The translations under genes and the position numbers were made by a program. 64,000 bases of DNA, taken from the NCBI GenBank assembly GCA_030526485.1, contig JAUNCS010000002.1, positions 1 through 64,000 of the forward strand, written 5' to 3'. The notes below the pieces were generated by a model. That model saw only the letters and a list, made by a program, of their open reading frames with translations, had not been told where the DNA came from and made no database searches. Within the stretch, counting starts at the first letter, position 1, and each line of letters begins with the position of its first letter. Below, in pieces: positions 7,085 through 28,181 of the stretch. This DNA comes from Erysipelotrichaceae bacterium. GTDB taxonomy: Bacteria; Bacillota_I; Bacilli_A; Erysipelotrichales; Erysipelotrichaceae.

Positions 7085-7268
7085 TTTCTTCCTCCAAATA
7101 AAACTGATAAATAGTATCTATAACCCTCATCCAGGTCTTTAGTTCCGTATTGGTAATAAAGTCATTACCATCAACTTCTTTTTCCTTAATCATTTTAATC
7201 AGTTCAGCATCCGAATAGTGATCACTTCTTCCTCTGACTGTCCAAATCTTATTATTCATTACCGGCAT
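7071..7268 (-). CDS. Small GYF-like (DUF4339-type) protein
   Basis: A 65-residue acidic protein. The pattern IWTVRGR, YSDAELIKMIKEKEV, DFI and ELKTWMRV resembles GYF_2/DUF4339 domains, small modules thought to mediate protein contacts; this is a weak pattern match, not a firm assignment. It overlaps the end of the RCC1-domain regulator upstream (17 bases if the first ATG is used) and the start of cysS downstream by 14. An alternative start is Met4. The overlaps suggest it is translated as part of one transcript linking the membrane regulator and cysS. Confidence 0.6.
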   Translation of the reverse strand: MPVMNNKIWTVRGRSDHYSDAELIKMIKEKEVDGNDFITNTELKTWMRVIDTIYQFYLEEENENL

Positions 7269-9006
7269 CGGGTTCTCTTTCTCTAATACGACAATAATTA
7301 TATGTCACAACTGCTTTACTTAAATCATTTCTTGAAATTTTCTGACCCTTAGAGATACCATCAACGGAAATAATCATAGTATTATCACCAACACACTCTA
7401 CAGGCTGTTCTATTCCCACCATATTATTGACGCCAATTGATCTTAGATATGCCTCAAATTCACCAATGGTCATTGTCTCAAAGTCTCTATCAATTTCGAC
7501 ATAGTCATCACTTACAATTTCTTCACGGTGATAAGCAAAATCCACTACCAAAGGTAAAGAATCAAGATATTCAATACCATCGCCCAGTGTTGTAATAGTA
7601 ATCTGATAAGTCTTATCATCTTCCATTTCATCAACATAGAAACTAACAGTCTGATTAGAACTTACACGATAAGTATTGCCCTCACCCACATTTAAGACAA
7701 TTTCATATCCTTGAGCATTGATTACTTTATCAAAAGAAACATCAATAGTAGAACTTACCGTAACCTTTACACCTGATACCTGAGCAAGTTTTACTGATTC
7801 AATACCAGCTGATTCAAACTGATGATAATCATTCTTCCCTGTACCATAGATATTTTCACCATCATAAGCCAGCAGATATTCATCACCCGAAGCAATCGCA
7901 ATGATATTGTTCCACTCAGCCACCGTCTTCTTCATTAAGATATCAGCAGTATCGATATAGACCTTGCCCTCAGAATTTAAAGCCGCAATAAAGTTATCAC
8001 CACAGGCTACATCGACAATATCACGCCACTTATAGATATTTAAGAAGTTTGCGGTCTTGGCAATATAGTCAACAGTTCCATCCTTGGTTAATAAAACCAG
8101 ATTGTCATTACTTGTATCCAGATCCAGGATGCCGTTGTAGTTCTTTAACTGACCAGAACCAATAAATTCACCTCTACAGTAAAGATCGCCATTATAGCCA
8201 AGAAGAATAGTGCCATTCTTTGTCGCATATACCTTGGAAATTTTTCTGTAATCATCTACTTCACACTGGCCATACTTATTATCACCAAAGGCATAAACTC
8301 TGCCCTTAATATCTACCGCTACAATATGGTTATCACCAGAAGCGATATCAATAATATCTTTAAGTTCAGCTAAACCTTCAGCCAAAGTATCTGTTAAACC
8401 CTTAGAATCAACAGTTCCATCATTATTTAAGATAACAGTATAAGTAGAACCCTCTGCTACCTTTACAGCATTTCGGCTAGGAAGATTAGAAATCTGCCCA
8501 TTGGCATTATCACCACTGCCTCTAACCGAACCTAATTCATCAATATAGACAGCAGTCGTATTGGAAACAGCCAGTCTATTAATATCATCAAGCTTAATTA
8601 CATCTACTAAACCAGTATTGCCACCAGAACCAAATACACTAATAACAATTATTCCTAAAATAATTACCCCAAACATCACGCCTAAAAGAATTGAATGCTT
8701 TTCGACAAATTCCCTTGAGTGATCCTTAAAAGTCTTAGGTGGCAAAAAGTATTCAATATTTAATTCATCGGTTTTTGTCTTAGAAACATCATATAAAGTA
8801 ACCTTTTCGCTGTTTTTGAAGACCTCATCGACCCCAATATGGTATAAATTTGCAATTTTTTTGCATTGATTGAAATTTAGGACTTTACGTCCGTTCTCAT
8901 ATGCCATATAATCTACTACGTCGACTCCTAGCACTTCTGCCAGGTAAGACTGCGAATAGTTGTAATGCTTTCTAAGCTTTAATAATTTCGTTGGAAGATA
9001 ATTCAC
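7252..9006 (-). CDS. Membrane-bound XRE-type regulator with extracellular RCC1-like, Fn3-like and PASTA-like domains
   Basis: A protein of 584 residues from the GTG at 9006. Residues about 7-60 form an XRE helix-turn-helix (LRKHYNYSQSYLAEVLGV...YENGRK). A single transmembrane helix follows at about 105-125 (ILLGVMFGVIILGIIVISVF). Outside lie RCC1-like repeats such as GRVYAFGDNKYGQC (about 130-410), a fibronectin-III-like stretch, and a C-terminal region resembling a PASTA domain. Topology predicts a DNA-binding domain inside and a sensor outside. I chose the GTG because an earlier in-frame GTG (9042) lies upstream of a TATAAT at 9013-9018, while 9006 is 6 bases after that box; MNYLPTKLLKLRKHY also starts like other XRE proteins. 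The ligand and targets are unknown. Confidence 0.75.
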   Translation of the reverse strand: MNYLPTKLLKLRKHYNYSQSYLAEVLGVDVVDYMAYENGRKVLNFNQCKKIANLYHIGVDEVFKNSEKVTLYDVSKTKTDELNIEYFLPPKTFKDHSREFVEKHSILLGVMFGVIILGIIVISVFGSGGNTGLVDVIKLDDINRLAVSNTTAVYIDELGSVRGSGDNANGQISNLPSRNAVKVAEGSTYTVILNNDGTVDSKGLTDTLAEGLAELKDIIDIASGDNHIVAVDIKGRVYAFGDNKYGQCEVDDYRKISKVYATKNGTILLGYNGDLYCRGEFIGSGQLKNYNGILDLDTSNDNLVLLTKDGTVDYIAKTANFLNIYKWRDIVDVACGDNFIAALNSEGKVYIDTADILMKKTVAEWNNIIAIASGDEYLLAYDGENIYGTGKNDYHQFESAGIESVKLAQVSGVKVTVSSTIDVSFDKVINAQGYEIVLNVGEGNTYRVSSNQTVSFYVDEMEDDKTYQITITTLGDGIEYLDSLPLVVDFAYHREEIVSDDYVEIDRDFETMTIGEFEAYLRSIGVNNMVGIEQPVECVGDNTMIISVDGISKGQKISRNDLSKAVVTYNYCRIREREPDAGNE

Positions 9007-9012
9007 AAAATT

Positions 9013-9018
9013 ATTATA
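9013..9018 (-). promoter_or_regulatory. Extended -10 box for a leaderless XRE-RCC1 transcript
   Basis: The minus strand reads TGTTATAAT, six bases, then GTG. The start site predicted from the -10 box coincides with the start codon. The promoter is back to back with the tRNA promoter on the other strand, and their -35 regions overlap. Confidence 0.6.
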
Positions 9019-9036
9019 ACAAATTGAAAAAAAGTA

Positions 9037-9065
9037 TTGCACAAATAAAAATCATATGTTATTAT
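9037..9065 (+). promoter_or_regulatory. Promoter of the tRNA-Asn-Glu-Lys operon
   Basis: TTGCAC (9037-9042), 17-bp spacer and TATTAT (9060-9065) preceded by TG. The predicted start is near 9072, five bases before tRNA-Asn. Confidence 0.75.
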
Positions 9066-22813: not shown

Positions 22814-23911
22814 TTAATAACTGTACAGTGTATAGCCATCTGGCACTTCGAACAGTTTGTCATCTACCTTGTACGAGAAGTTTACAATCTTGATACGGCT
22901 CACACTGTCTGGAATTTCGGTGATGATGTAAACCAGGGTGTCACCATCAAAGCACAGTGTAGTAGTTCCTTCTGGTTCATCCCAAGACTCAGTATAGTAA
23001 ACCTTGCCTTCTACTTCCTTGCTGCCAACCCTGAAAGTTTCTTCATTGATGTCTTCCTGTACTGGCATAGCCTGTAATAGGCCTTCATATTCTGACTGCA
23101 GGGCCATTTCAAAGACCATCATACTTTCATCGGAAATCATATACATCTTGTCATTTTCGATAATCAGTTTTACACCGCCATCCTGGGTTGTAGTATCTAT
23201 ATAAGTCTTTGTGCCCTTTACCGCTAAGGTCATTAAACCACTTTCATCATCGGTTTCTACTTCATATTCCATATACATTTCGCCACCTTCAAACTGGCTG
23301 TAGAACTTAATAGCACGGCTGTCCTTAAACTTTGATGTTTCACCACCAATAATAACTGGTTCACTTGTTTCAGTTTTTGCCTCTACTTCAAAGAAAGTCA
23401 GATTGTAAGTGTACATATCTTTGCGGGCTTCTGAGCTCCACTTATTGTCATACTGATTTTGAACGATAACTAAGCCTTTGCCATCTTTTTTAATAGCAAA
23501 CTTATTGTAAGTTAATAGTTCATTATCAAGAACTTCTTCAAACCATTCCTGATCAAATTCATCATTGGTATAAACCTTGCCATCATCTGCTAAAGTCTTA
23601 AAGTAATCAACAAATGACTGCATGTCACTTAAACGACCCTGATTATCTTTTCCTTCTTCAAGGAAGAAATAAAGTTCATCTCTATCAGGTTTTTCTTCAC
23701 CTTCACATACTGCATAGTCTTTATAGATAGCATCGATTTTTACACCATATTTATCAGCGATTTTCTTGGCAGTATCAGTTACTTTTTTAGAACTGTTATT
23801 TGTGTTTGTATTGTTGGTATTTGTATTGTTATTGTTGTTTTCCTTAGAACCACAGGCAGCTAATCCTACACACAGTAAGATGGCCAGTAGTATAGTAATA
23901 ATCTTTTTCAT
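22814..23911 (-). CDS. Lipoprotein of unknown function with Asn/Thr-rich linker
   Basis: A 365-residue exported lipoprotein. The signal peptide ends in the lipobox LAAC with lipid-modified Cys20, and is followed by a low-complexity tether of Asn and Thr residues (about 24-41). The folded part includes a segment typical of lipoproteins that bind a surface or ligand (DMQSFVDYFKTL, FYSQFEGGEMYMEY, FSYKVDDKLFEVPDGY) but I do not recognise a family. AGAGGAG precedes the ATG. It follows another lipoprotein gene on the same strand with 13 bases between them. Confidence 0.8.
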   Translation of the reverse strand: MKKIITILLAILLCVGLAACGSKENNNNNTNTNNTNTNNSSKKVTDTAKKIADKYGVKIDAIYKDYAVCEGEEKPDRDELYFFLEEGKDNQGRLSDMQSFVDYFKTLADDGKVYTNDEFDQEWFEEVLDNELLTYNKFAIKKDGKGLVIVQNQYDNKWSSEARKDMYTYNLTFFEVEAKTETSEPVIIGGETSKFKDSRAIKFYSQFEGGEMYMEYEVETDDESGLMTLAVKGTKTYIDTTTQDGGVKLIIENDKMYMISDESMMVFEMALQSEYEGLLQAMPVQEDINEETFRVGSKEVEGKVYYTESWDEPEGTTTLCFDGDTLVYIITEIPDSVSRIKIVNFSYKVDDKLFEVPDGYTLYSY

Positions 23912-23924
23912 TTTTTATTCTCCT

Positions 23925-24761
23925 CTAATAGTCCTCTGATGGAGCTGGATGATATTCCAGCAAGATCTGAAGTGATGCATCATGGAATTCAAGAATAGTG
24001 ATTCGCATCGCTTCACCATTAAATTCATAATCAGCGATGTAATTCTTAGTGTATTCACTTGATAAGTCACCATCACCATAGATGCCATTTTCATTTAAGA
24101 TGTTTACAAATTCTTCGATATGACTGGTTTCCGGTTCAGCATCATACATAATGCCCTCTTCAGCTTCCAGTCCACCAATCCAGTCAGTCCCACTGATTTC
24201 GATATAGCCAACATCTTCGATATGTAAATCAGGAATGCCCCACTTAGCCCATTCTTCCGCACTAGGCCAAGAACCCTGGTTGGTATAGCCATCGAAGTTA
24301 TAAATATCCATCGAACCTGTTCCCACTGGCACCGTATTAACCGTGCAGCTGCTTGAGAAGCTATATTCCGGTTCTTCACCAACCCATTGGCTAACTATTT
24401 TCAAAGTCTCATCGCCATTGACGATATCGTCACCCAGCTTATGCCAGCCATTCCAGTTAAAGCCGGTTTCAATCCATTCATTCATGGTGCAGCCAAATTC
24501 CATTACCAGGAAATATGGGTATTCAACACCATTTTCTTCAATATAGAATGGGCAGATATTCTTGCCTGGGAACTTCTCTTGCCAGTAATCCATACTGTAT
24601 TGTATTGGATCACCATCAATCTCAACATTACTGTCTAATGTGTTGTTGATGTTTTCACTTGAAGTGTTTGGTTTTTCCTCCTTTATCTCTTCTTTAGACT
24701 TACAGGCCGCTAAGCTAAGTGCCAGAAAGCCTGTAAGCAAAAATATTATTATCTTTTTCAT
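23925..24761 (-). CDS. Lipoprotein of unknown function
   Basis: A 278-residue lipoprotein with lipobox LAAC (Cys20) followed by a charged, Ser/Asn-rich tether. The mature part is acidic and rich in Trp and Tyr (MDYWQEKFPGKNICPFY, WIETGFNWNGWHKLGDD). No family recognised. AGGAGG precedes the ATG. It forms a two-gene operon with the next lipoprotein gene and lies just downstream of the terminator of the beta-helix/LuxR regulator, which may control it; this is inference from position. Confidence 0.8.
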   Translation of the reverse strand: MKKIIIFLLTGFLALSLAACKSKEEIKEEKPNTSSENINNTLDSNVEIDGDPIQYSMDYWQEKFPGKNICPFYIEENGVEYPYFLVMEFGCTMNEWIETGFNWNGWHKLGDDIVNGDETLKIVSQWVGEEPEYSFSSSCTVNTVPVGTGSMDIYNFDGYTNQGSWPSAEEWAKWGIPDLHIEDVGYIEISGTDWIGGLEAEEGIMYDAEPETSHIEEFVNILNENGIYGDGDLSSEYTKNYIADYEFNGEAMRITILEFHDASLQILLEYHPAPSEDY

Positions 24762-24820
24762 TTCGCTTCCTCCTAACAGGAATAATATTTATACCTAAAG
24801 TATTCCATTATTGAGCAAGC

Positions 24821-24858
24821 TAAAACACCTACCACAGGTAGGGCTAGTGGTAGGTGTT
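24821..24858 (-). terminator. Intrinsic terminator of the beta-helix/LuxR regulator gene
   Basis: A 12-bp stem, AACACCTACCAC (24824-24835) with GTGGTAGGTGTT (24847-24858), ending in TTTTAG on the minus strand. Confidence 0.8.
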
Positions 24859-24862
24859 GTCC

Positions 24863-26845
24863 TTATTTCTTATATATTAATTCCGAATACTTCTTTAATA
24901 AGTCTTCCTTATTGGCACAATCCAGCTTGTCATAGATCTTGCGATAGTAATCCTTAACCGTTGTAATGCCAATACCCAGTTCATAGGCGATTTCTTTTTG
25001 TTTCTTACCAGAAAGCATTTCCATCAGTACTTCAAATTCTCTATTGGTCAGGGTCTGAATCTTAGGATCGATATTCTTTAATCGTTCTATCTCTTCTTCA
25101 TTAAACCAGGCCTTAACAATCTTCTGATTATTGGCCTTAAAGCCTTCCTTGTTTTTGTAACATAAGAAGCCAATCATCACAAGTGCGCCAATTATTACTG
25201 CATAGACACTGATACTTACCTTGGATTTACCACTGTATAGACTTTCATCATAATTAGAACCAAGAACAAATTTCTTGATATTATATCTTCCATTAATCAT
25301 TTTCATTCCAATTTCAGCCGGTATTGTTGTATCAATATTTCCTTTAGATTTAATAACTAAATGATTATTATCAACATCAATTTCCAAACCATCTTCTTTA
25401 GCCTTAGAAGGTGAAGCCAGGTAGTTATAGTTACTAGTATCAGATCTTGCAAAGTCTTTTTCAAAAGTCTCATCAATGATGATATTGCCACTGTAGCTAA
25501 AGTGTGGAATAGCGAAGACATCAGCAGGATGAGATGCCCAAAGCATATAGAAGTCGGGATTTACATAGTTATATTCACTGTCACAGGTATTGCCAATATA
25601 AGTTGAAAGGTTCATTTCCAGATAAGTGACATCCATTTCTTCCATAGCCTCGTTATAGTAAGAATAAATACCACCATAAGCATTTTCGGCACTGTTTCCA
25701 TAAATACTGGAATTGATAATACTTATTTTGGAGCCATTTATTCCTTCGTGATACAAAGCGCCACCCTGGGCCATATTGGACCATGGACCCTTGTCTTCGT
25801 AAGTTCCATCCGTATGAGCCTCAGCTCGATTATCTTTGATTACACAGCCATCAATCTCACCATTTGAATTAGTAAAGGCTAGGCCACCACCCATGGAAGA
25901 TGTATTAGAACTAATTAAGGTATTTCTTAAAACTAGTTCGCCATTATAGGCATAGATTGCTCCGCCCTTAGTTGTATCCATATCAGATAAATAGGCATCC
26001 ATAAAAATATGATTGCTGAGATTATTTTCAAATAGAGAGTCTTCAATAAGCGTTTTGCAACCTGACAGGTAAATAGCGCCACCACCCATACTAAACTGGC
26101 CAGCACCGCTCTTATTGCCCTTAAACGTAGAATTATTGATAGATAATTCAATATTATTGTTTCCTTCAATATACAGGGCTCCACCATCATATCTAGCAAC
26201 GTTATCACTAAACAGACAATCATCAAACGCAATATTCAAATGACAGGCAGAATAATCACCAAACATCTCCATTAAAATCGGAATACTTGTATAGTCCCCA
26301 TAATGAATATTCATAATTGGGCCATATTCATGCATATAGTTTTTAAACTCACACTTATTAAAACTTGAATCAACATTGCCCTTATAGGTAATTGCCTGTT
26401 GAGCCATCAAAGGTTCATCATGAGTATATCTTTCCTCATTTTCATCATATGGCCAGTCAAAGTCTCTATCTGATAAGTTAGCTGTATCAACTCCACCATC
26501 AAAGACTATTCCCTCAAAATTAACAATTATTGATGCACCGCTCTTATCTCCGCTTAAGATAAAAGCTCCATTTTTAAATACTGATTTATCATTAGCACTC
26601 TTTATAGTTAAACTCTTATTGATTTCGATACGCATCCAGGAATTAAAGACATCACCTGGTGGCGTAAAATCAATATCCCCCACTAGCAAGACATCCCCAC
26701 TTTTAGCTGCCTGAATAGCTGACTTTAATTCACTATATGAAGAAATGGTCTTTTCCTTAGCGCTAAGACTAACTGAAAAAGACATCATAAAAACAAATAC
26801 TAAAAAACAACTTAGAATTTTCTTGTATAAACCATTATTATGCAT
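24863..26845 (-). CDS. Transmembrane regulator: extracellular beta-helix domain, one TM helix, cytoplasmic LuxR-type HTH
   Basis: A 660-residue protein with a signal peptide (about 1-29), then some 450 residues of right-handed beta-helix repeats of the pectate-lyase/polymorphic outer membrane protein type (GGALYIEGNNNIELSINNS, GGAIYLSGCKTLIEDSLFEN, GGAIYAYNGELVLRNT). A single membrane helix lies at about 543-563, and a LuxR/GerE helix-turn-helix at about 599-655 (LTNREFEVLMEMLSGKKQKEI ... ITTVKDYYRKIYDKL). The outer domain faces out and the DNA-binding domain in, so signals pass across the membrane in one polypeptide. GGAGGATC precedes the ATG. Ligand and targets are unknown; the two lipoprotein genes downstream are candidates. 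Confidence 0.85.
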   Translation of the reverse strand: MHNNGLYKKILSCFLVFVFMMSFSVSLSAKEKTISSYSELKSAIQAAKSGDVLLVGDIDFTPPGDVFNSWMRIEINKSLTIKSANDKSVFKNGAFILSGDKSGASIIVNFEGIVFDGGVDTANLSDRDFDWPYDENEERYTHDEPLMAQQAITYKGNVDSSFNKCEFKNYMHEYGPIMNIHYGDYTSIPILMEMFGDYSACHLNIAFDDCLFSDNVARYDGGALYIEGNNNIELSINNSTFKGNKSGAGQFSMGGGAIYLSGCKTLIEDSLFENNLSNHIFMDAYLSDMDTTKGGAIYAYNGELVLRNTLISSNTSSMGGGLAFTNSNGEIDGCVIKDNRAEAHTDGTYEDKGPWSNMAQGGALYHEGINGSKISIINSSIYGNSAENAYGGIYSYYNEAMEEMDVTYLEMNLSTYIGNTCDSEYNYVNPDFYMLWASHPADVFAIPHFSYSGNIIIDETFEKDFARSDTSNYNYLASPSKAKEDGLEIDVDNNHLVIKSKGNIDTTIPAEIGMKMINGRYNIKKFVLGSNYDESLYSGKSKVSISVYAVIIGALVMIGFLCYKNKEGFKANNQKIVKAWFNEEEIERLKNIDPKIQTLTNREFEVLMEMLSGKKQKEIAYELGIGITTVKDYYRKIYDKLDCANKEDLLKKYSELIYKK

Positions 26846-26887
26846 CAGGGGATCCTCCCACCTATTGATGACATTATTCTACAAAAT

Positions 26888-26914
26888 AAAACAAAGGCTT
26901 GTCTAAACAAGCCT
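26888..26914 (-). terminator. Intrinsic terminator of the PD-(D/E)XK nuclease gene
   Basis: AGGCTTG (26895-26901) with CAAGCCT (26908-26914) and a T-rich tail on the minus strand. Confidence 0.85.
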
Positions 26915-26920
26915 CATAAA

Positions 26921-27817
26921 CTATTTATTTTCATTAAGTTTTGCCAGAATCAAATCAGCAGTAGAATCATCAACAGCCAACCTGCTTAAAGCCTCTTCAA
27001 CAGGCATACCTGTTTCAACCAGCTTCAACACATTATCAACAGTCGCATTCCTGGCACCATCTTCAAGCCCATACTGATAACCAGCAATTTTCCATTCTTC
27101 CAGAATTATTGGCATATTAGTTGAATCCTCCTTTTTAAACATTATATCGAAATTCTCATTCAGAATATCTATCTTGCATTCCGGTAAAAGAGTTTTCTCT
27201 AAAAAGATTATTCTAAACATATCCAGGATGTCATAAAAAGCGGAACTATCCATTGTTTTCTTTTTACCAACATTCATCATTATGATATGAGGTATATCAT
27301 AATTATCCTTATGTTCATGATACTCACCTTTAAGATGTTCCTCAGATAAGCAATAATGATTAATAGTATCCTCACTATTTTTACCAGGATTAAAACAAAT
27401 CCAGATGGTATATACTTTCCTTAATTTTCCATAATCTGATCCACTAAAACTTTCATTCTTCTGTCTGGCTATCAATCTTGAAGAGTAATAAATTGCTCTT
27501 TTCAATAAGGGATATCCTGGATTTACAACATTCTGGGATTCAACATCAATATATAGTCCTATTGAATCTTCGCTGTTTGGTAACTTAGCTGTAAATAAGA
27601 CATCATAAATAATCTTGGCGCCCTCTACCCTAATATCCTCGTTCTGAATGCCTTTTACATTTCTTGAATCACCGCCATCTTCAATCAGTTCTACTATCTC
27701 GCTAATGCTTAGATTTTGATATTCAGGAATTACAGCCTTCATTACATTTGCCAGTACTCTTTTATTGGATAAGATATTTCTGCTTCTTTCATCTACTAGC
27801 ATTTCTTGTGAATTCAT
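26921..27817 (-). CDS. Rpn family / PD-(D/E)XK nuclease-transposase-like protein
   Basis: A 298-residue protein of the PDDEXK_2 (Rpn-like) group, which promotes recA-independent recombination in E. coli and is often annotated as a transposase. The nuclease core is seen as LYIDVESQNVVNPGYPL, and a C-terminal part (GYQYGLEDGARNATVDNVLKLVETGMPVEEAL, shortened here) is the helical tail common in Clostridia copies. It is a lone gene with its own terminator and no inverted repeats beside it, so there is no sign of an active element. GGAGG precedes the ATG. A candidate promoter is TTGGAG (27906-27911), 17 bp, TATACT (27883-27888). Similar genes occur in multiple copies in gut Firmicutes. Confidence 0.85.
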   Translation of the reverse strand: MNSQEMLVDERSRNILSNKRVLANVMKAVIPEYQNLSISEIVELIEDGGDSRNVKGIQNEDIRVEGAKIIYDVLFTAKLPNSEDSIGLYIDVESQNVVNPGYPLLKRAIYYSSRLIARQKNESFSGSDYGKLRKVYTIWICFNPGKNSEDTINHYCLSEEHLKGEYHEHKDNYDIPHIIMMNVGKKKTMDSSAFYDILDMFRIIFLEKTLLPECKIDILNENFDIMFKKEDSTNMPIILEEWKIAGYQYGLEDGARNATVDNVLKLVETGMPVEEALSRLAVDDSTADLILAKLNENK

Positions 27818-27983
27818 CTATTCACCTCCTATACTTCTTTATTGTGAAAATACTTTTAAAAATCCTCACTTTATAAGAAAAAAGTATAAAAAGTTTTAAA
27901 TTCTTCTCCAAAACTTCTCCAAAAAAGAATATGACAATTATTAAGAATTAATTAACTAGTTCAATCCCGCCCTTCCAGAACGC

Positions 27984-28009
27984 GAAAAAAAGGATTCTTT
28001 CGAACCCTT
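27984..28009 (-). terminator. Intrinsic terminator of the tRNA-Ile-Ala operon
   Basis: AAGGATTC (27990-27997) and GAACCCTT (28002-28009) with a seven-T tract on the minus strand. Confidence 0.88.
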
Positions 28010-28020
28010 AAATTTCAACT

Positions 28021-28096
28021 TGGTGGAGCATAGCGGGATCGAACCGCTGACCTCCTGCGTGCAAAGCAGGCGCTCTCCCAGCTGAGCTAATGCCCC
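28021..28096 (-). tRNA. tRNA-Ala (TGC)
   Basis: A 76-base cloverleaf on the minus strand with acceptor stem GGGGCAT/ATGCTCC, anticodon TGC, T-loop GGTTCGATCCC and an encoded CCA. Confidence 0.97.
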
Positions 28097-28104
28097 AAGT
28101 TTTA

Positions 28105-28181
<77 letters not shown>

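Follow-up and report, generated by a model that had tools for sequence, protein, structure and literature searches.

The open reading frame (ORF) at 24863-26845 of the window, i.e., the whole 64,000-nucleotide stretch of DNA that was analyzed, probably encodes a one-component transmembrane transcription regulator with a Pmp/adhesin-like outer beta-helix and a LuxR/GerE output, acting on adjacent genes for exported proteins. This role is supported by the domain order, two membrane segments, a canonical HTH, conserved ends joined by an unconserved connector, exported neighbors, and a palindrome present in two loci (Table 1). Counting against it are the absence of the protein from 35 congeners, the orphan status of the first lipoprotein, and the overlap of the palindrome with a terminator-like hairpin. 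Most proposals for how bacteria turn surface contact into gene expression call for several proteins. In this case, the predicted sensor and output lie in one chain, both are conserved between bacterial classes, and a single candidate operator adjoins the gene; the whole path could thus be tested with the purified tail, a DNA fragment, and a reporter.

Table 1. Features of the regulator locus, in window coordinates
Feature	Position	Strand	Basis or remarks
Second lipoprotein, 365 aa; candidate target	22814..23911	-	Lipobox; no Pfam match above curated cut-off
Orphan lipoprotein, 278 aa, first gene after palindrome; candidate target	23925..24761	-	Lipobox LSLAAC
Near-palindrome, 29 bp, ACCTACCAC-N11-GTGGTAGGT; candidate operator, also terminator-like hairpin	24827..24855	.	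Shared with L136:8071-8099, same position
Single-pass membrane regulator gene, 660 aa	24863..26845	-	Order signal peptide, beta-helix ectodomain, TM, LuxR HTH; Pfam, hydropathy, full-length homologues
C-terminal LuxR/GerE HTH, residues 597-649	24899..25057	-	PF00196; PDB profile matches; 61% identity to L136
Basic cytoplasmic linker, residues 564-596, unconserved	25058..25156	-	Regional identity comparison
Single transmembrane helix (TM), residues ~541-563	25157..25225	-	Hydropathy maximum 2.47
Predicted extracellular domain, residues 30-540	25226..26758	-	Between both hydrophobic segments; 42% identity to L136, residues 29-475
Chlam_PMP/GGA(I,L)-type beta-helix repeats, residues ~221-395	25661..26185	-	PF02415; motif count versus shuffles; profile match to solved chains
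N-terminal signal peptide, predicted (cleaved or anchor), residues 1-29	26759..26845	-	Hydropathy
Promoter-like TAGACA-18-TAGAAT upstream of regulator gene	26876..26905	-	Weak; consensus scan only; such sites occur in the region in chance number
PD-(D/E)XK_2 (Rpn-like transposase family) gene, upstream, own terminator; context, outside the system	26921..27817	-	PF12784

The strand and coordinates of the ORF proved exact on re-check. Hydropathy analysis found only two strongly hydrophobic segments in the 660-residue protein, at residues ~9 to 28 (the signal peptide) and ~541 to 563. The ectodomain matched PF02415 (Chlam_PMP) with 41.6 bits (7.1e-11; curated cut-off, 20.6), and the C terminus matched PF00196 (GerE) with 49 bits (4.8e-13; curated cut-off, 23.5). 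Pfam and hydropathy thus support the original prediction of a one-protein layout, in which outer beta-helix-type repeats are followed by one TM and a LuxR-type HTH. Neither a kinase domain (Pfam, NCBIfam) nor a receiver domain with a phospho-acceptor Asp (Pfam) was matched, and the NCBIfam response-regulator matches, each far below its cut-off, spanned the HTH region. The beta-helix had been assigned to the "pectate-lyase/adhesin type"; the adhesin half of that description stands, given the Pmp-type repeats, and the pectate lyase half does not, since lyase families gave no Pfam match at E values up to 1. Four GGA[ILV] motifs occur in the ectodomain, a count reached by none of 20,000 composition-preserving shuffles; the strict FxxN motif was not enriched there (three occurrences, reached by 7114 of 20,000 shuffles).

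A profile built from the repeats and three other proteins matched two chains of known structure, 7w5z and 9cdu (Rhombotarget A), with values of 3.6e-9 and 2e-4, respectively, and motifs of this repeat type build beta-helix coils in predicted Pmp structures (PMC11166332). AlphaFold2 run on the single sequence without homologues yielded no usable model (pLDDT of 33 for the full length and 31 for the ectodomain), so we infer the beta-helix fold from the sequence, namely, from repeat similarity. When all three full-length members described below were used as a profile, only LuxR/NarL-type DNA-binding domains were matched, at the tail (DesR, GerE, VraR, and NarL). An outside-TM-inside topology, with the repeat domain predicted outside and the HTH predicted in the cytoplasm, is indicated by the signal peptide together with the basic sequence YKNKEGFKANNQK that flanks the TM on its C-terminal side. 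GC3 is higher in the TM-HTH tail (0.44 to 0.46) than in the ectodomain (0.25 to 0.31; mean of window genes, 0.32). The recent fusion that this difference could indicate was rejected because other bacterial classes carry the same fusion.

No full-length relative of the 660-residue protein turned up among 35 congeners, in 316 genomes from across the order, in a 392-genome sample of the phylum, or in an initial scan of 84,980 species genomes for which the protein served as the single query. Two viral scans and a phage scan detected no relatives, and tblastn searches of plasmids returned repeat-level beta-helix matches only. A full-length homologue of 606 residues, 30% identical end to end, was found in a 395-genome sample of the class (G675:C75:11217-13001), in a genome from a different family of the same class. 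It has a signal peptide, a repeat-like ectodomain, a TM at ~464 to 490, and a GerE domain (5.7e-10), with no reported match to PF02415. An alignment of these two proteins then led to a third member in an Oscillospiraceae MAG (SVME01000047.1; locus L136), which is up to 710 residues long and shares 42% identity with the window protein in the ectodomain and 49% in the tail. In this protein, both PF02415 (23.5 bits) and PF00196 exceed their cut-offs, and a Pro-rich stalk longer than that of the window protein precedes the TM; plasmid tblastn with it gave no matches. The search for the same architecture in other genomes that had been suggested as a check was therefore successful. The architecture is thus real and occurs in at least three species, in two classes by record titles, and its patchy spread suggests horizontal transfer or repeated loss. 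A chance fusion or assembly chimera was rejected, since each of the two full-length homologues lies in a different assembly from that of the window. With these relatives, the protein seems to make up a new family of surface sensors, small in size.

Compared region by region with the L136 protein, the ectodomain is 50% identical in its N-terminal half and 38% identical in its repeats; identity then falls to 18% for the stalk, 30% for the TM, and 18% for the linker and reaches 61% for the HTH, the most conserved region. The LuxR signature is kept in all three members, and the HTH of the G675 homologue is more diverged. By these alignments, the outer domain and the HTH are constrained, while the connector (stalk, TM, and linker) is free, as expected if selection acts on both the outer sensor and the HTH. 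Such a pattern would fit signaling by clustering, dimerization, or cleavage, which need little connector sequence, and it argues against an adhesin with a dead tail.

From the predicted topology, we infer a mechanism with putative ligand sensing, a candidate operator, and presumed regulated genes. The signal peptide would export the protein and display the Pmp/adhesin-like right-handed beta-helix outside, and the single TM crossing would keep the LuxR/GerE HTH in the cytoplasm. An external partner, whether a surface polymer, a protein, another cell, or a molecule from the host or the diet, may bind the beta-helix and change clustering or dimerization or lead to cleavage. The HTH would then bind DNA near its own gene, most likely the palindrome at 24827-24855, and control the neighboring genes for exported proteins, here the two lipoproteins. 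A broader interpretation, which we offer tentatively as a possibility rather than an expectation, is that of a small family of contact sensors that has spread horizontally among gut-type Firmicutes, in which an adhesin-like beta-helix, one TM, and a LuxR domain act through a dedicated palindrome next to the regulator gene on neighboring surface or exported proteins. If true, adhesion would be reported directly to transcription without a kinase, a sigma factor, or a second messenger.

The candidate operator lies between the regulator gene and the next gene in the window (ACCTACCACTAGCCCTACCTGTGGTAGGT, 24827-24855), and a counterpart occupies the same place in the Oscillospiraceae locus (ACCTACCACTTTACCTCCCAGTGGCAGGT, 8071-8099). 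Just behind the regulator gene, both loci thus have the consensus ACCTACCAC-N11-GTGGYAGGT, with 23 of 29 positions equal despite the different GC contents of the loci (~37% versus ~52%). Eight of 5000 shuffles attained this identity, as did two of 5000 real pieces taken at random, and the shuffle figure overstates the significance because both copies are palindromic, so that a match in one arm brings the other. Allowing up to three mismatches, the site is the only one in the whole window, and no second copy was found in a scan of 0.93 Mb (48%) of its genome; no counterpart was found beside the G675 homologue.

It is quite conceivable, although we lean against it, that the palindrome serves only as a transcription terminator and that the regulator acts elsewhere in the genome. 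The window element can fold as a hairpin (-19.7 kcal/mol) with a short stretch rich in T behind it, which leaves room for a dual or purely terminator role, and the operator scan covered the 0.93 Mb given above. The L136 element, however, comes after a canonical terminator distinct from it, lacks a T-run, and is followed ~18 nt later by a -10-like TATAAT, and the conservation is in the sequence itself, beyond pairing alone.

Genes for exported proteins adjoin the regulator gene in all three genomes. In the window, these are the two lipoprotein genes; among 95 other genomes of the family, the product of the first resembled other proteins only in its signal peptide. A gene for a 2282-residue membrane-anchored surface protein ends 79 bp before the G675 homologue, and the L136 homologue, near a tRNA-Leu gene, is followed by a gene for a small soluble GerE protein and a surface ORF with a signal peptide. 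No genes for CAZymes, transporters, or sugar uptake adjoin the window ORF. tRNA-Ala and tRNA-Ile genes also stand in front of it, and the region at 22814-28181 occupies a slot between a CaCA exchanger gene and these tRNA genes. In congener G002, the slot between the exchanger gene and the tRNA-Ile/Ala pair is filled by an unrelated secreted protein with List_Bact repeats, and the same protein adjoins the exchanger gene of congener G001; the slot is thus variable. Small soluble proteins of ~95 to 108 residues that consist of GerE alone (L136:8272-8556 and L122:3854-4177) are alike, occur in two unrelated loci, and in each adjoin a membrane LuxR gene; they are possible partner proteins.

An alternative that we regard as rather unlikely is regulated proteolysis, in which the protein would be held inactive at the membrane until a signal from outside, or shear acting on the beta-helix, triggers site-1/site-2 cleavage and the freed linker-HTH diffuses to its targets. 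An unconserved stalk, TM, and linker fit a severable connector, as does the longer, Pro-rich stalk of the L136 protein. Yet no cleavage motif was identified, a lone HTH often needs help to dimerize, and ToxR/CadC-type regulators are active while still tethered to the membrane. A precedent for cleavage exists in the RsgI anti-sigma factors of Clostridium, which are cut within the TM by RseP (PMC12203970).

The original prediction went further in proposing direct sensing of polysaccharide; that the protein is such a sensor and controls glycan use is a reading we consider unlikely. Many polysaccharide-acting proteins are beta-helices, and single-protein sugar sensors such as SusR are known in gut bacteria. 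Nonetheless, no polysaccharide-lyase or carbohydrate-binding family was matched in Pfam, no CAZyme or transporter genes are nearby, and the repeats are of the adhesin type. Conserved aromatic or His positions, taken as the signature of a glycan site, were not enriched (p = 0.41), and this signature was dropped. Domain matches, gene context, and aromatic positions thus gave no positive evidence for the glycan hypothesis. The reading that the protein is an adhesin of the cell surface, with a LuxR-like tail that is a relic or just an anchor and has no transcriptional role, for which the adhesin-like repeats, the orphan status within the genus, and the lack of known targets would speak, is very improbable, given that the HTH is the best-conserved part and retains the LuxR signature in three of three members when a relic would decay, and that Gram-positive anchors are normally short sortase-type tails.

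The preferred reading, a one-component transmembrane regulator, places the protein in the broad class of transmembrane transcription regulators, of which a survey of ~11,300 species counted more than 50,000 (PMC10269533). It has a DNA-binding domain and at least one TM in one chain (PF00196; TM, 541-563), with the GerE HTH at the C terminus and, like the PF02415 repeats, above cut-off. The remark that most LuxR regulators are soluble or work with a kinase is true, though membrane-bound one-component versions were already documented (PMC9734109) and polytopic ones are common in the order. DadR, HcdR, and CadR of Eggerthella lenta are LuxR regulators with 10 to 12 TMs that activate adjacent genes (PMC9734109). 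The window protein resembles these and the polytopic LuxR proteins of the order in being one-component, in carrying a C-terminal LuxR HTH inside after the last TM, and in often standing beside possible targets. It differs in having one TM and a 510-residue outer domain instead of 10 to 12 N-terminal TMs and no large outer domain; many polytopic LuxR proteins of the order share a linker of 24 to 37 residues between the last TM and the HTH.

ToxR, TcpP, and CadC likewise combine an outer sensor, one TM, and a cytoplasmic DNA-binding domain in one chain (PMC10269533, PMC5430869), but with an N-terminal OmpR-type winged helix and the C terminus outside, whereas the order is reversed here and the HTH is of the GerE type. 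SusR of Bacteroides, another protein of gut bacteria, also unites an external sensing part and C-terminal DNA binding in a single protein; its DNA-binding domain, however, is not of the LuxR type, and its ligand, bound in the periplasm, is maltose (PMC3878776). Chlamydial Pmp adhesins share the GGA(I,L,V)-type repeats (PF02415) that build beta-helix coils (PMC11166332), yet they are autotransporters with a C-terminal beta-barrel, for which no Pfam match was obtained here, the C terminus consisting of the TM and HTH instead. Finally, the RsgI anti-sigma-I factors of Clostridium are membrane proteins of Firmicutes that link an external substrate-sensing domain to transcription (PMC12203970, PMC4711584), but they act via a sigma factor in the reverse orientation, and the window protein has no RsgI domain. 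It thus shows none of the DadR-type 10 to 12 TMs, a ToxR-type winged helix, a receiver domain, an autotransporter barrel, or a lyase family. Membrane-bound LuxR regulators are known, and the single-pass beta-helix version is new; a literature search, mostly outside subscription journals, found no paper on a LuxR-beta-helix regulator.

Within this bacterial order, the membrane sensors to which LuxR output domains have been fused differ greatly, being either polytopic or a single-pass beta-helix. All the other membrane LuxR proteins examined there are of the polytopic kind and have 6 to 14 hydrophobic segments. The window's own genome (1.95 Mb, 72 contigs) encodes two GerE proteins, the one described here and a polytopic one on contig C56 (35233-36600; locus L096, 35233-39046). 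Three consecutive lipoprotein genes stand behind this second LuxR gene, the only further one in the genome, and their products have no detectable relation to the two lipoproteins behind ORF 24863-26845. Membrane LuxR genes had exported-protein genes as 7 of 29 neighbors versus a background of 10% (p = 0.02; 15 loci, related loci counted twice), a weak hint that such adjacency is a rule of the order. In congeners G027 and G031 (L113:5117-8275 and L115:754-3951), a polytopic LuxR gene diverges, at ~140 bp, from a gene for a secreted protein with beta-helix-like repeats and weak MBG-domain matches, an unfused LuxR/surface-repeat pair within the genus.

The second membrane regulator reported in the window, with the opposite topology, is real. 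It occupies 7252-9042 on the minus strand and consists of an N-terminal HTH_3 domain, one TM, and RCC1 repeats, with the N terminus inside and the propeller outside. Homologue alignments suggest a start near residue 13 of this ORF (~9006), in agreement with the 7252-9006 given originally. Of 245 genomes searched in the family, 161 gave matches, many of these to the RCC1 or HTH part only, and nearly every genome of the genus has the regulator conserved; it is thus ordinary and widespread in the group.
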